In this document: piece after piece, positions 1 to 44,304 of the stretch
Position numbering within the stretch: position 1 is the first letter of the stretch
Layout: each line of letters opens with the position of its first letter
IMG/VR virus record: IMGVR_UViG_3300031886_000009
Span: 1 to 44,304 of that record
From: a virus
Reading direction: 5' to 3' (one strand)
DNA length: 44,304 nucleotides
Program-made: the position numbers and the translations under genes
Notes under the pieces: model-generated
The model's database searches: none
What the model was told of the DNA's origin: nothing
What the model saw: the letters and a program-made list of their open reading frames with translations, nothing else

Positions 1-142
1 TTAATACACAGGATATGATTGCTACCGAAAAAGCAAAGTAATGGAGCCAACGCAACCAAGTGGCTGTCTGATCCCAATCCTTTTTAGCTAATCGAAGTTC
101 TATTCTGGAACCCTCGTAAGCTCTTTGTATCCACGTTCTCAT
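1..142 (-). CDS. Small one-helix membrane protein, 3' end cut by window edge
   Basis: This is the first 47 codons of the 53-aa protein that is complete at 44064-44225; the window edge removes the C-terminus. The two copies encode the same residues, and their one coding difference (ATA versus ATT at codon 5) is silent. It starts at the ATG read from 142 down, 3 nt after an AAAAGGTG ribosome-binding site. It is a second view of one gene on a circular map, not a duplicated gene, because the sequence just before base 1 on the circle is the sequence before 44084. Confidence 0.75.
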   Translation of the reverse strand, partial: MRTWIQRAYEGSRIELRLAKKDWDQTATWLRWLHYFAFSVAIISCVL

Positions 143-220
143 AATCACCTTTTACTGTGGTGTTAGTGGTGGGCTGACCCCACCGAGTCAGTGTAGTAAA
201 TCTACACTAGGAAGGGCAAG
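1..220. repeat. Terminal direct repeat, left copy (circular-map overlap)
   Basis: Bases 1-220 recur at 44084-44304. The copies differ by T/A at 128, and around 143-144 by one inserted T and one A/T change. Everything else matches, including half of the structured leader. The simplest reading is a circular or terminally redundant genome whose ends overlap. The small differences could be strain variation or sequencing error, because a true terminal redundancy kept by recombination should be identical. Confidence 0.9.
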
Positions 221-268
221 GGAATCCCTGGAACCAGGGGAAACGTATCTTGCCCAAACTACTGTAGA
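143..268 (-). promoter_or_regulatory. Structured leader A, upstream of the membrane protein/methyltransferase pair
   Basis: Read on the minus strand this 126-nt gap holds four hairpins in a row. H1 pairs 249-255 with 214-220 (GGGCAAG/CTTGCCC) around an inner CCCTGG/CCAGGG stem. H2 pairs 202-208 with 190-196 (7 bp, 5-nt loop). A GACTC spacer follows. H3 pairs 179-184 with 168-173 (6 bp). Last is a 4-bp CACC/GGTG hairpin (159-162 with 146-149) whose 3' arm lies in the ribosome-binding site of the next gene. Leader B has the same order, with compensated changes in H2 and H3. No run of T follows H1, so it is not a simple terminator. Function is inferred: regulation in the 5' untranslated region. 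Confidence 0.6.
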
Positions 269-583
269 CTAATAATGTGGTTCGTAAGTCACTTTATCAG
301 TTGGTTCATCTCGCCAATCGCCAGAGTCTACATGGTCAACGAACCGCTGGAGCGTGTCGATTGCTTCCTGCTTTTCTGACTCTAGGGTTTGGATGTCTTC
401 GAGGGAGGATTGCAAGGCGTAGAACTTTTCCTCTACTGCCCTGAACTCTTCATTAAGGTGTTGGCTAGGGGCTTTCAGGCGTACTAAGTCATTCCGGTAC
501 TGTACTATATTCCGGAAAGCTCTGTCCCTCTGGTGGCCTAGCATGATGGATTGCTCTTTTTCTGTGAGTGTGTACCATTCCAT
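269..583 (-). CDS. Hypothetical coiled-coil protein (104 aa)
   Basis: A charged, mostly helical protein with no family I recognise. Residues about 45-90 (from the HLNEEFRAVEEKFYALQ segment on) have the spacing of a coiled coil, and the C-terminus is acidic and Tyr-rich. The longer reading frame reaching 718 is not the gene: the ATG at 583 follows GAGGGGGTG by 4 nt and lies just after the stop of the zinc-ribbon gene (585-587), so the two are probably co-translated. It belongs to the minus-strand accessory block and is followed by structured leader A. The stop codon lies in a sequence (AGTCTACAGTAG) that recurs in leader B in another frame. Confidence 0.65.
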   Translation of the reverse strand: MEWYTLTEKEQSIMLGHQRDRAFRNIVQYRNDLVRLKAPSQHLNEEFRAVEEKFYALQSSLEDIQTLESEKQEAIDTLQRFVDHVDSGDWRDEPTDKVTYEPHY

Positions 584-584
584 A

Positions 585-818
585 TTACACCCCCTCTTCT
601 TCGAGCATTGCGACAGAGTCCCAATACCTAGCCGAACAAGCCGGACACCTGACCAAATTACTTCCATTAGATTGCATCTCAATGTCCCAGCTAGAGGATA
701 AAGAATCAGCCACCTCATCCAGCCAATCCTTGCCCCCCTCTAATTGTTCTATTTCGACCTTACTGTCGCAGTCATCAGTAGTACAATATACTGAGACTTT
801 ATCTATATAAATACCCAT
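585..818 (-). CDS. Small zinc-ribbon-like protein (77 aa)
   Basis: Two cysteine pairs, C-x4-C near residue 12 and C-P-x-C near residue 57, bracket a variable acidic middle. This is the layout of a small zinc ribbon of the kind common in phage accessory genes, which may bind nucleic acid or protein. The start is the ATG at 818, 5 nt after AAAGGTG. A GTG two codons upstream (824) is in frame but overlaps the ribosome-binding site. The gene is preceded by structured leader B and followed after 1 nt by the 104-aa gene. The specific function is unknown. Confidence 0.65.
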   Translation of the reverse strand: MGIYIDKVSVYCTTDDCDSKVEIEQLEGGKDWLDEVADSLSSSWDIEMQSNGSNLVRCPACSARYWDSVAMLEEEGV

Positions 819-915
819 ATGCACCTTTTATTGTGGTGTGGTTGGTAGCTTAACGCCACCGAGTCAGTACAGTTAATCTGTACTAGGGAGGGGAGGACAA
901 AGCCCCCCCAACCTA
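819..915 (-). promoter_or_regulatory. Structured leader B, upstream of the zinc-ribbon gene
   Basis: It has the same plan as leader A. H1 pairs 903-909 with 890-896 (GGGGGGG/CCTCCCC, one G-T wobble). H2 pairs 878-884 with 866-872 (7 bp, 5-nt loop). The GACTC spacer is identical. H3 pairs 855-860 with 844-849, with one G-T wobble that exists only in minus-strand RNA. The CACC/GGTG hairpin over the ribosome-binding site comes last (835-838 with 822-825). H2 differs from leader A by two fully compensated base pairs. The covariation and the strand-specific wobble indicate a conserved RNA fold on the sense strand. Confidence 0.65.
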
Positions 916-1299
916 CTATAGACTAACCCTAACGTTTCCATGCTCTGGATAAAAGTCTACAACTCTTTTTTTCAAAGTCTGGAATGATATTGAGTTGTCA
1001 AAAATATGTATCTGTCCATGATCTAACAGAACTAAAAGCTCTGTACCAACACCAAAAAACTTACCAATCTTTTTAGTCTCGATGTCGATTATAGGGCGGT
1101 CAACTCCATTGCGTTGGGAGTTGCTAACTTTACGCTTGCCCTCTGGATGCAGGGTAAGCTCTACACGCTTCTCTGCATCATTATATTTTAGGTTGTAACG
1201 CTCATTAGGACAAAAACCAGCCTCTGCAAGCTTTGCTCCCTCTATCCAGACTCTGGAACCTCTGGCGGTCTGGACTACTGTTGTTTTTATAGTACTCAT
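916..1299 (-). CDS. Hypothetical protein with SymE/AbrB-like N-terminal domain (127 aa)
   Basis: Residues about 13-75 carry a pattern (RGSRVWIEGAKLAEAGF, then LTLHPEGKRKVS, then RPIIDIET) that I recall from small SymE/SpoVT-type swapped-hairpin domains and from the N-terminus of some phage cytosine methyltransferases. The rest (FGVGTELLVLLDHGQIHIFD) could be a second small beta domain. It starts at the ATG at 1299, 4 nt after AGAGGTG. Here it is a separate gene in the block that also holds the methyltransferase, which hints at a shared role in DNA recognition or regulation. The family assignment is from memory and tentative; the gene itself is well supported. Confidence 0.65.
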   Translation of the reverse strand: MSTIKTTVVQTARGSRVWIEGAKLAEAGFCPNERYNLKYNDAEKRVELTLHPEGKRKVSNSQRNGVDRPIIDIETKKIGKFFGVGTELLVLLDHGQIHIFDNSISFQTLKKRVVDFYPEHGNVRVSL

Positions 1300-1404
1300 T
1301 TTGCACCTCTATTGTGGTGTTATTGTGGGCAGGATTGCCCTTGGTGAAAGCTTAAAGCTTCCCCTATAGTTGGCCTTGCTTAACAAAGCCAACCAAGCGA
1401 GAGC
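1300..1404 (-). promoter_or_regulatory. Leader C, upstream of the 127-aa gene
   Basis: This 105-nt gap starts on the minus strand with a TTGGC/GCCAA hairpin (1370-1392, extended by a CAA/TTG pairing) just after the GP88-like gene, which may also act as its 3' end. Next come an AAGCTT-rich stretch and a GGGCA/TGCCC hairpin (1328-1341). The conserved CACC-ACAATAGA-GGTG hairpin (1304-1319) holds the ribosome-binding site. The layout matches leaders A and B, but apart from the last hairpin the sequence differs. Confidence 0.5.
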
Positions 1405-2157
1405 CTACGCAATGGCTTTGAACTTATTTTTACCGCTTCCGTGTACTCTGAAAGCAACTATAATTTTTCGTTTGCCCCTCTGGCAAAGCATACACTCCGC
1501 ACAGTTGTTCGCCTTGCCTGTCTGGACAGGACAAACTACCATTTTATTACCTTCGGGAGTGGTTGTCTTTTCTGGATAAAGTTCCCCGTTGACTTTTTCG
1601 GGAACTGTCACGGCTACTGGATTGCCTGTTTTATAATATCTGTCGGCTTGCTTAATTCCATTAGCTGACAAATTAATTGTAAAGCCGTCCCTGTTTGCTT
1701 TGGTGATTGCTTCGAGGTTGGCTTTGGCTGTGGGGGTGTCTACATACTTTGAAGGCTCAATTTCTTTGTGGGTATAAGTGAAGCCTCTTTTACCTCGGTT
1801 TGCTCTGGCTAATTTGCCCAAGGCTTCCGAGTCGATGGTGTTGGCTGGGTCATGGTCATATCCGAGCAAGTCCCCTGCTTGATTATGCCTCCAAGGTTCA
1901 TCAGCTTGGAAGTCCTCCACTTCTTTTAAGAAGCTTTCAAAGTCTGTCCCTCTATCGCCAGAGGTGACTTTGTCCCAGTGCATATTTAAGTGCCAACCTT
2001 CTTTAGCATAGCAGTATCCTCCATTATCTGGATGATGTTCGCACCCTTGAGGGCAGGAAGCCTTCGAGCTTGTTGTTACTTTTCGGAACTTCATCTTATT
2101 TTTAGTGGTTCCTACTACTTTTTTATTGGATGATTTATGGCTGATGTGAGTATTCAT
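1405..2157 (-). CDS. GP88/DUF7227-like phage protein
   Basis: A 250-aa protein with a cysteine pattern near residues 35-50 (CPQGCEHH, then YCYAKEGW) and a C-terminal cluster (CPVQTGKANNCAEC, then MLCQ) close to residue 220. This matches my memory of the GP88/DUF7227 family that is widespread in phages, where the cysteines may bind a metal or iron-sulfur cluster. The function is not established. It starts at the ATG at 2157 after AGAGGATATAAC and is the first gene leftward from the divergent control region. Its leader carries the variant hairpin ATCC-ACAATAGA-GGAT. Confidence is high for the gene and moderate for the family. Confidence 0.75.
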   Translation of the reverse strand: MNTHISHKSSNKKVVGTTKNKMKFRKVTTSSKASCPQGCEHHPDNGGYCYAKEGWHLNMHWDKVTSGDRGTDFESFLKEVEDFQADEPWRHNQAGDLLGYDHDPANTIDSEALGKLARANRGKRGFTYTHKEIEPSKYVDTPTAKANLEAITKANRDGFTINLSANGIKQADRYYKTGNPVAVTVPEKVNGELYPEKTTTPEGNKMVVCPVQTGKANNCAECMLCQRGKRKIIVAFRVHGSGKNKFKAIA

Positions 2158-2200
2158 GTTATATCCTCTATTGTGGATTAACTAACTTTAAAAAAAAGCC
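2158..2200 (-). promoter_or_regulatory. Leader D, short ribosome-binding-site hairpin of the GP88-like gene
   Basis: Minus-strand ATCC (2175-2178) can pair with GGAT (2163-2166) around the loop ACAATAGA, which is the same loop as in leader C. Relative to C the outer two pairs change from C-G and A-T to A-T and T-A, so pairing is kept while sequence changes. The 3' arm overlaps the AGAGG ribosome-binding site. Confidence 0.45.
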
Positions 2201-2221
2201 TCTGGATTGAGACTTTCAATA

Positions 2222-2250
2222 ATAATATATAAAAAAGGTTAGTAAAGCAA
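2222..2250 (-). promoter_or_regulatory. Candidate leftward promoter of the accessory block
   Basis: On the minus strand TTGCTT (2250-2245) and TATTAT (2227-2222) are 17 nt apart, an acceptable sigma70-type layout about 65 nt before the GP88-like start codon. The region is AT-rich, so chance matches are likely. Two AAAAAAGGTTA repeats (2231-2241 and 2261-2271, 30 bp apart) lie on and next to it. Confidence 0.35.
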
Positions 2251-2280
2251 GTTATTAATTAAAAAAGGTTAAAATAAAAT

Positions 2281-2610
2281 AAGTATTGCCAAGTATTACC
2301 AAAGTATTACCATTTTTTTATTCAATGATATCAGGAAGATAGATAAGTATTACCACTAGATAAAATAGGTCTTTTATTCAATAATATCATATACTTATAT
2401 ATAAAAAAAAATAAGTATTACCATAATAGAGGCACCCCTTTCTGCAACAGCCTGTTTTTTTGTGGGTATAGCTGTTTTTTTGGTAATACTTCTGGTATAA
2501 TGAAATATGTTTTATTAATTCAGTGCTTTATAGAAAATAAGTATTACCATTTCGTAGTGGTAATACTTGGCAATGTTCTGATATTATTAACCTTTTAAAT
2601 GGTAATACTT
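2281..2610. repeat. Cluster of ten AAGTATTACCA repeats (iteron- or operator-like)
   Basis: Exact 11-mers lie on the plus strand starting at 2291, 2302, 2345, 2413 and 2539, and on the minus strand ending at 2491, 2568 and 2610. Imperfect copies are at 2281 (AAGTATTGCC) and at 2569-2578 (minus). The first three are tandem at 10-11 bp, one helical turn. The copies at 2539 and 2568 form an inverted repeat with 11-bp arms and an 8-bp spacer. Two TTTTATTCAATRATATCA copies (2316-2333 and 2372-2389) lie among them. The cluster fills the gap between divergent operons and runs into the small terminase start. It could be a repressor operator array, a replication origin or a terminase binding (pac) site. 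Confidence 0.8.
2471..2501 (+). promoter_or_regulatory. Extended -10 promoter reading toward the small terminase
   Basis: TGGTATAAT (2493-2501) is a consensus extended -10 element (TGnTATAAT); the -35 region is only a weak TGTTTT. One AAGTATTACCA copy (2481-2491, minus) lies in the spacer directly upstream of the -10, and an inverted pair lies about 40-70 bp downstream. That is how an operator would be placed to block RNA polymerase. Confidence 0.5.
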
Positions 2611-15098: not shown

Positions 15099-15138
15099 AA
15101 CTACATTGCGGAGTTTCTCTATAATATAAGGAGAAAAC

Positions 15139-16188: not shown

Positions 16189-16200
16189 ATCCTGACCTAA

Positions 16201-16232
16201 TAGGCAGTCTTTCGGGACTGCCTAACCTTTTA
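16201..16232 (+). terminator. Terminator after the major capsid gene
   Basis: TAGGCAGTC (16201-16209) pairs perfectly with GACTGCCTA (16216-16224) around a 6-nt loop, followed by ACCTTTTATAAAAATT. This 9-bp stem and short T run should end or reduce transcription, keeping capsid mRNA more abundant than the downstream tail genes. Confidence 0.75.
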
Positions 16233-16244
16233 TAAAAATTAGAT

Positions 16245-41998: not shown

Positions 41999-42637
41999 TT
42001 ACGCCTCCTTCCAGATTTGATCTGCTTTAGTTGCCAGAATATCTACAACAACTTCCTCAGAGAATACAAAGTATTGATCCAACTGCCGGACTTCCCCTTT
42101 TGTATATCCAATTGGTAGGATGTCGTAGTGTTCATAACGATTCTTCCGAGTATAACTAGGAAGACCTATGCAGAACTTACGGAAGATAGCCTCTCCATCT
42201 TCCTTCCACTTAATTACCACACGCCCATTGTCTGACTTAGATGCATGACCAATGCACTTGGTGTGGCCTAGTCTCCACAAAGTCCCTGTCCAGCCAGTTT
42301 TATCTGAGCTTTCATCGAGCGTGTGGTTCTTGTAATTATGAATCTTAAATTTTGAATCAAGGATTGACTCAAATGCTTCTGTGAAGGGGTTTGAATATTC
42401 GTTGGTAAATTTAAGGATATCCTTCGGTTTATCCACAACCACTTGAAGGTGTGGTTCTCCCTCTGAGTCCTCAAAGCCGATGATCAAACCATCGTCCATT
42501 CCTTCGGTAGTGGCTCCCCCATTGTTAGTAACGAGGATGCCTGTGCCGTCACTGAAGCACTTCTGCATGGCGGTGCAACCGCCCCCTGTTTGGATTTCCT
42601 CGAAGCCTAATTGCTTCAGGATTGTTTTAGTATCCAT
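41999..42637 (-). CDS. Hypothetical phage protein (212 aa)
   Basis: The N-terminal 45 residues (LKQLGFEEIQTGGGCTAMQK, then GTGILVTNNGGATT) resemble a small phage domain I have seen without assigned function. The rest is mixed alpha/beta with a Trp/His-rich centre (TGWTGTLWRLGHTKCIGHA). It starts at ATG 42637, 4 nt after AGGGAGGG, and overlaps the 40-aa ORF. It ends in the convergent terminator. No transmembrane segment and no enzyme motif. It is the last gene of the accessory block. Confidence 0.65.
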   Translation of the reverse strand: MDTKTILKQLGFEEIQTGGGCTAMQKCFSDGTGILVTNNGGATTEGMDDGLIIGFEDSEGEPHLQVVVDKPKDILKFTNEYSNPFTEAFESILDSKFKIHNYKNHTLDESSDKTGWTGTLWRLGHTKCIGHASKSDNGRVVIKWKEDGEAIFRKFCIGLPSYTRKNRYEHYDILPIGYTKGEVRQLDQYFVFSEEVVVDILATKADQIWKEA

Positions 42638-42749: not shown

Positions 42750-42840
42750 CTTGTTCTCCAATTAGAGTGGATTAACGATATTAACTGAATTGTCAATATC
42801 CGTCTGACCCCTGCGTTGCACAGGGGGCAGAAAGGATTGA
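42750..42840 (-). promoter_or_regulatory. Gap with hairpin and -35-like element before the 40-aa ORF
   Basis: It holds a CCCCTG-7 nt-CAGGGG hairpin (42808-42826) after the methyltransferase stop, without a T run. On the minus strand TTGACA (42796-42791) is a perfect -35, but no good -10 stands 16-18 nt downstream. A GTTAATATCGTTAATC direct repeat (42786-42771) could be an operator. Promoter activity is possible but unproven. Confidence 0.35.
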
Positions 42841-44067: not shown

Positions 44068-44225
44068 ATGACCCCCACATAAATTAATACACAGGATATG
44101 ATTGCTACCGAAAAAGCAAAGTAATGGAGCCAACGCAACCAAGTGGCTGTCTGATCCCAATCCTTTTTAGCTAATCGAAGTTCTATTCTGGAACCCTCGT
44201 AAGCTCTTTGAATCCACGTTCTCAT
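44064..44225 (-). CDS. One-helix membrane protein upstream of the methyltransferase (53 aa)
   Basis: The first 28 residues are charged (RTWIQRAYEGSRIELRLAKK), and residues 29-53 are hydrophobic and aromatic (WLRWLHYFAFSVAIISCVLIYVGVI), predicting one transmembrane helix near the C-terminus. It starts at ATG 44225 just after AAAAGGTGAAAT, and its stop overlaps the methyltransferase start (ATGA), so the two are coupled. The joint of the circular map cuts through it. Function is unknown; its size would allow a holin-like, exclusion or anchoring role. Confidence 0.65.
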   Translation of the reverse strand: MRTWIQRAYEGSRIELRLAKKDWDQTATWLRWLHYFAFSVAIISCVLIYVGVI

Positions 44226-44304
44226 ATTTCACCTTTTACTGTGGTGTTAGTGGTGGGCTGACCCCACCGAGTCAGTGTAGTAAATCTACACTAGGAAGGG
44301 CAAG
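44084..44304. repeat. Terminal direct repeat, right copy (circular-map overlap)
   Basis: Repeats bases 1-220 with two substitutions and one extra T. It includes most of the membrane-protein gene and the start of leader A (44226-44304: ribosome-binding-site hairpin, H3, H2 and the 5' side of H1 as read on the plus strand). On a circular map it continues at base 221. Confidence 0.9.

Follow-up and report, generated by a model that had tools for sequence, protein, structure and literature searches.

The DNA considered here is a single record of the IMG/VR database (IMGVR_UViG_3300031886_000009), 44,304 bases from an uncultivated bacterial virus and taken at its full length (the window), in which four accessory genes on the minus strand, named 142, 818, 1299 and 2157 after the positions at which they start, are each preceded by a small hairpin that involves the ribosome-binding site (RBS). 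Each of the four would form the 3' end of a structured leader between cistrons, and the explanation that we favour, with moderate confidence and on sequence evidence, is that this leader acts in cis on the initiation of translation of the minus-strand accessory genes. The leader is present and recurrent, two of its hairpins (A and B) pair with compensatory changes, and a third hairpin, over the Shine-Dalgarno sequence (SD), is kept at four syntenic leaders despite the replacement of one of the genes.

The hairpin closest to the start codon (hairpin C) reads, on the minus strand, CACC / ACAGTAAAA / GGTG before gene 142 (146..162), CACC / ACAATAAAA / GGTG before gene 818 (822..838), CACC / ACAATAGA / GGTG before gene 1299 (1304..1319) and ATCC / ACAATAGA / GGAT before gene 2157 (2163-2178), and in all four cases it ends 3-5 nt before the ATG. 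An earlier note on this DNA had placed hairpins before these four genes, and all of them lie at the positions claimed; its broader proposal, that several accessory genes share an RNA element at the RBS whose two arms covary, is likewise supported, and hairpins A and B, upstream of C, are an addition to it. The exact core CCACARTARARG is matched five times in the record, always on the minus strand and always directly before a start, where the fifth match (44233-44244) is the gene 142 leader again, in the overlapping end of the record. This second copy (44220..44299, minus strand) has its leader differences confined to the stretch between hairpin C and the ATG. The plus strand of the record holds no match to the core, and a reversed control pattern also gives none. 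With two mismatches permitted there are 44 matches vs 24 expected, and only the exact matches are informative. In a list of starts chosen by the analyst, 4 of 7 on the minus strand and 3 of 33 on the plus strand follow a perfect 4-bp hairpin whose 3' arm contains the SD.

Upstream of hairpin C lies the larger part of the leader. Before genes 142 and 818, and before two counterparts in the related phage L029, it consists of hairpin A (7 bp, loop AUUWR), the linker GACUC, hairpin B (6 bp, loop GUYAR) and then hairpin C. For instance, in the gene 142 leader hairpin A is AGTGTAG / ATTTA / CTACACT (190..208), the linker GACTC occupies 185-189 and hairpin B is GGTGGG / GTCAG / CCCACC (168..184), with the gene 818 leader having AGTACAG / ATTAA / CTGTACT (866..884), GACTC (861-865) and GGTGGC / GTTAA / GCTACC (844..860), all on the minus strand. 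In a five-row alignment of these leaders, which represents four independent leaders as one row is the record-end copy of another, all 17 pairs form in every row. Within helices A and B seven pairs have changed on both sides, as against 2.7 in shuffles and 0-2 when the partners are slid by 1-3 columns, and the loops stay constant while the stems change. Gene 1299 has two hairpins of unrelated sequence at the equivalent positions (GGAAGC/GCTTTC and GGGCA/TGCCC with a 5-nt linker, 1327..1362, minus strand), with a third, longer hairpin upstream of them, and in the intercistronic leader of a short open reading frame that starts at 42750 (42751..42840, minus strand) two strong hairpins are followed by TCCA/TGGA over the SD. 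The leaders of 142, 818, 1299 and 42750 therefore each have a pair of the A/B type, which the first gene, 2157, lacks in its leader.

This concentration of structure is also seen in the folding z scores, which fall between -3.0 and -5.6 in 8 of 8 intercistronic gaps in the operon (four per phage in the window and L029). The region before gene 2157 gives -2.1; for plus-strand gaps 8 of 9 lie between -1.9 and +0.9, and the remaining one, after the capsid gene, is at -3.8. The covariance models of Rfam 15 give no match in the leaders of the window or L029 up to an E value of 5. With a dedicated covariance model, R2, the window, L029 and L040 give leader matches at E values of 1e-21 to 1e-25, and these are matches to the very rows, or near-identical copies of them, from which the model was built.

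The comparison with L029 carries much of the argument for hairpin C. L029 is syntenic with the window cluster, the five compared proteins being 60, 64, 24, 56 and 83% identical, where the protein with 24% identity reflects a replaced first accessory gene (in the region L029 11753-13635) at which an RBS hairpin and the start sequence ATGAATACTCA are nonetheless kept. A 4-bp SD hairpin is found at all four of the syntenic L029 starts, namely CACC/GGTG with ACAATAAAA twice, CACC/GGTG with ACAGGAAAAA at the 12876 gene and TTCC/GGAA with ACCACATGG at the 13635 gene, such that arms or loop are altered in two of them. The expectation that the loop would be conserved thus holds for the 142/818-type leaders of both phages and fails in two of the four L029 leaders. 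The first-gene leaders of the two phages have almost no common sequence and both fold over the SD. In the window the gene 2157 hairpin can be extended to eight pairs (GTTAATCC / ACAATAGA / GGAT-A-TAAC, 2158..2182, minus strand), the L029 counterpart also extends, and the outer arms are swapped between the two, GTTA/TAAC in the window vs TAAC/GTTA in L029. A further difference is that the 77-amino-acid gene 818 lies in the window between the leader and a gene of 104 amino acids, which in L029 directly follows the leader. Two more records, L040 and L006, hardly differ from the window in sequence.

What might such a leader do? In the proposed mechanism the stable hairpins A and B, or the hairpins that replace them, would insulate the start region from the transcript of the gene before it, and every gene would then have to initiate independently. 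The marginally stable hairpin C would pair the SD with the upstream CACC, ATCC or TTCC arm, leaving an A-rich stretch in the loop, and may thereby either lower initiation moderately or make it depend on something that melts or clamps C. Because the stems show compensatory changes we infer that the leader acts in RNA, and we further infer that its effect, in the direction and of the size just given, is on translation. The earlier suggestion that the stem hides the RBS is not supported for the stem by itself, as the four pairs are weak, at between -2.3 and -3.6 kcal/mol (-2.7, -2.7, -3.6 and -2.3 for the four window hairpins folded alone). The eight-pair form at gene 2157 reaches -4.3, a stability equalled by 1 of 200 shuffles, and its extended L029 counterpart -7.5, equalled by 7 of 200.

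Several results weigh against a leader of this kind. When the upstream sequence is shuffled, 15-21% of shuffles equal hairpin C in the four window leaders and 17-27% do so in the four L029 leaders, so no single hairpin is remarkable, only the set, and support for hairpin C comes from its recurrence and its conservation in L029. With a permissive count that allows one bulge, the 2157 leader is equalled by 18% of shuffles and its L029 counterpart by 23%. Moreover, hairpin C is invariant across the five aligned leaders, so that alignment provides no evidence of covariation for it. The leader is also sparsely distributed: the R2 search matches 4 of 49 records, the fourth weakly, which leaves two independent phages with the full leader in a set that includes the window, L029, L040 and the record of L006 and is made up mostly of short fragments that may miss the cluster. 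Similarly, the sequence ACC...GGT is absent from the minor-strand genes of three relatives (0 of 11 in G047, 0 of 15 in G053 and 0 of 13 in G054). In one further relative, G048, it frames the SD in 9 of 13 minor-strand genes vs 1 of 34 major-strand genes, and this framing habit is consequently present in that relative and not in the other three.

The pattern search that the earlier note had proposed found the exact core in the record only before these starts, and the exact motif before an ATG in none of 50 relatives' records found via capsid and terminase, most of them fragments that may miss the cluster. No such leader is seen at three homologues that are distantly related to the 1299 protein (L074-L076, 38-42% identity). 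The weak R2 match in G048 (E 0.045) falls on a hairpin between genes whose loop is AUUUA; it lacks both GACUC and the C hairpin, and is not counted as a leader. Scanning IMG/VR with CACCACARTARARGGTG returned 49 stretches, in context a leader only in L029 and L040, the others looking like chance; scanning with TGACTCGN{17,28}CACARTARARGG returned four matches, L029 and L040 together with the chance matches L059 and L060; and a hairpin-A pattern also returned four, L029 and L040 together with L213 and L214, whose sequence does not continue as a leader. A stricter hairpin-A-type pattern had no match in genome_contigs.

One of the questions raised by such a leader is whether it serves as the target of a regulator. 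A common translational operator, at which an RNA-binding protein from the phage or the host would bind the leader through the loops of A, B or C and thereby control the accessory genes as one set, would account for the way that the loops of A and B are kept while their stems change, a pattern typical of hairpins bound by a protein, and for the constancy of the C loop in leaders of the 142/818 type in both phages. It appears rather improbable, however, given that the C loop is lost in two of four L029 leaders, that the hairpins before 1299 carry unrelated loops, that genes 583 and 44073 of the same cluster are without the motif, and that no homologue of RegA (PF01818), CsrA or ANTAR is found in the record at E<=1. 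The altered loops of the 12876 and 13635 genes in L029 also speak against the single loop-recognising repressor that had been envisaged at the outset. An alternative is that the intercistronic hairpins are elements of RNA processing or stability that are cut or that protect mRNA ends, with the conserved RBS being merely favourable. This is unlikely, if worth keeping in mind: the intergenic position, the several strong hairpins per gap and the lack of a U run behind A and B all suit it, as does a long imperfect stem that could form from a strand named P0 and the inner hairpin, but it leaves unexplained both the CACC, ATCC or TTCC arm opposite the SD and the rarity of such an arm before plus-strand genes.

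Strand P0 may have another function. In the gene 142 leader it is TCTACAGTAG (259..268, minus strand) and begins right where gene 583 ends with its stop codon, and in the gene 818 leader it is TCTATAGTAG (913..922, minus strand), overlapping the stop codon of gene 1299. These 10 bases are complementary to the 5' arm of A and can pair with it at 8 or 9 of 10 positions in each of the four independent leaders that have A, in a helix that has an identical G-G mismatch in the four and three positions that change together. In predicted folds the pairing with P0 is favoured in leaders of the 142 type, and hairpin A in those of the 818 type. A leader of this type might constitute a phage RNA switch cassette, in which the 5' arm of A chooses between its own 3' arm and P0, translation of the preceding gene, a ligand or a protein decides the choice, and the signal passes via B to the RBS hairpin. 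We regard this as a long shot. The P0:A pairs within each leader (9, 8, 8 and 8) fall inside the range of 5 to 9 found between different leaders, which makes the predicted competing helix suggestive only. If true, it would amount to a distributed control layer akin to the start-associated repeats of mycobacteriophages (described below), in a family of uncultivated phages whose capsid gene would be timed by an RBS hairpin of its own.

Two further explanations are both very doubtful. Similar leaders may be recombination linkers that permit cassette exchange, their likeness resulting from shared ancestry and not from regulation. In keeping with this, the window 818 leader is the counterpart of that of the L029 104-amino-acid gene with gene 818 in between, and the first gene differs in L029 even though both have the same start sequence. 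Recombination requires sequence identity, whereas here the stems differ and remain paired, and the dissimilar first-gene leaders both fold over the SD. In the second explanation the leaders would act at the level of DNA, as promoters or repressor sites, as has been proposed for the ESAS repeats of mycobacteriophages introduced below. Inverted repeats upstream of genes are often operators, and in Adephagia the ESAS repeats overlap putative promoters according to the cited article (PMC11373665), but in the leaders the arms vary between copies and pair within each copy, and a consensus scan limited to sigma-70 sites shows no promoter-like site in them.

The nearest known kind of element is represented by the start-associated sequences (SAS) and extended start-associated sequences (ESAS) of Cluster K mycobacteriophages, and by analogy the leader would work like that kind without being a member of it. 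As portrayed in the articles, SAS/ESAS are RBS-positioned repeats with self-complementary ends located 3-7 bp before the start (PMC3203893; PMC7302621; PMC11373665; PMC12699233). They are limited to non-structural genes of different families with wide upstream gaps, about half have inverted repeats upstream, and their function is described as unsettled (PMC3203893). Similar motifs are reported from Microbacterium Cluster EF phages (PMC7302621; PMC3203893). The leader shares with them a recurring motif at the RBS position of four starts, a spacing of 3-5 nt and upstream gaps of 97-126 nt for genes 1299, 818 and 142. The sequence is unrelated, as the 13-bp GGGATAGGAGCCC has no match in the window with up to two deviations, and the SD lies in the 3' arm here and between the outer GGG and CCC in SAS. 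ESAS are 17-bp imperfect inverted repeats whose departures, according to their authors, do not generally support RNA pairing (PMC3203893), whereas the leader has 7- and 6-bp hairpins with compensatory changes. Start-associated repeats with upstream inverted repeats are thus known from mycobacteriophages; the leader is an analogue with coordinated changes in the two sides of its stems, a sign of RNA over DNA, and its exact stems and loops are defined. It resembles an inbuilt element for the control of translation, of a sort that has so far been known as unexplained repeats in other phages. No description of these leaders was found in the open-licence PMC literature covered.

Structure over the RBS is well known from T4, where the RBS of genes e, soc, 49 and I-TevI is described as sequestered in an RNA helix (PMC3014915), and the predicted folds here resemble these in pairing the SD in a hairpin upstream of the start. 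For gene e the block is lifted by late promoters that lie within the structure (PMC3014915); in the leaders, hairpin C is weak. The operator of gene 43 in T4 and RB69 likewise combines an upstream hairpin with sequence overlapping the RBS, but it belongs to one gene autoregulated by DNA polymerase (PMC3014915), and the leaders have no such link to a protein. The earlier note had likened the element to T4 RegA targets, and the control of many genes at their start regions would be a similarity. RegA sites, though, are characterised as unstructured and A+U rich with the AUG within or adjacent (PMC3014915), unlike leaders with folding z scores as low as those given above. The weakness of C, the loop not kept in two L029 leaders and the unstructured nature of RegA sites together mean that a RegA-like common operator is not supported. 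ANTAR targets resemble the leaders in having two small hairpins with a short linker and conserved loops (PMC3369931). Their loops are of six bases with A1 and G4, as against the pentaloops AUUWR and GUYAR (PMC3369931), and no overlap with a terminator was found at the leaders.

Hairpins over the RBS extend beyond the accessory genes. The major capsid gene has a different one, TTTCTCT / ATAATATAA / GGAGAAA around the SD (15114..15136, plus strand), which in 51 distinct orthologous leaders has a mean of -2.88 vs -0.65 in shuffles, where the z of -11.8 treats related sequences as independent, and most other genes tested are unlike it. Arm permutations were used for this gene because MAFFT lost the register of the stem. 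In 27 divergent representatives the own arms give -2.6 vs -1.5 for swapped arms, with 1 of 2000 permutations equal. The arm pairs vary widely, for instance TGTTCCTT/AAGGAACA, ATAACTCC/GGAGTTAT and AGAACGTCC/GGACGTTTT. Two points count against this result: -3 kcal/mol is reached by 9 of the 27 representatives and not by the other 18, and the own RBS arms of gene 9990 also beat swapped ones (7 of 2000 permutations). Since the capsid RBS hairpin covaries, RBS hairpins do not, on this sequence comparison, seem to be peculiar to accessory genes, and RNA structure at the RBS may be a device of this phage lineage for accessory and capsid genes alike. The covarying capsid RBS hairpin of the window and the relatives L077-L202 has an A/U-rich loop. 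Downstream of the capsid gene there is a strong hairpin, AGGCAGTC/GACTGCCT (window 16189-16244).

The ends of the record overlap by about 221 bases with 218 identities (window 1-221 vs 44084-44304), such that the map is probably terminally redundant or circular, and the few differences within the overlap seem to reflect the joining of two variants of one population. Gene 142 continues beyond the end of the window. The minus-strand cluster comprises 2157 (DUF7227), the first gene of the operon, followed by 1299, 818, 583 and 142 and, across the joined ends, a C5 cytosine methylase (42841 to about 44070, minus strand) and a 212-amino-acid protein (41999-42637, minus strand). Elsewhere the recognised proteins are terminase, portal, capsid, primase and recombination proteins. 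No published phage with nucleotide similarity to window 1-2400 was found. The terminase has a single match in genome_contigs, on a contig of 3.9 kb binned as Gemmatimonadetes, which was not used for host assignment.

Between gene 2157 on the minus strand and the terminase small subunit on the plus strand there is an AT-rich control region in which the repeat AAGTATTACC occurs nine times, in both orientations and in one case with a mismatch (window 2281-2610). These are likely to be operator or origin iterons, and their position in a divergent control region may offer a transcriptional route for joint control of the cluster. Just upstream of gene 2157 (window 2188-2217, minus strand) a hairpin, AAAGTCTC/GAGGCTTT, is followed by a T run and resembles an intrinsic terminator or attenuator.

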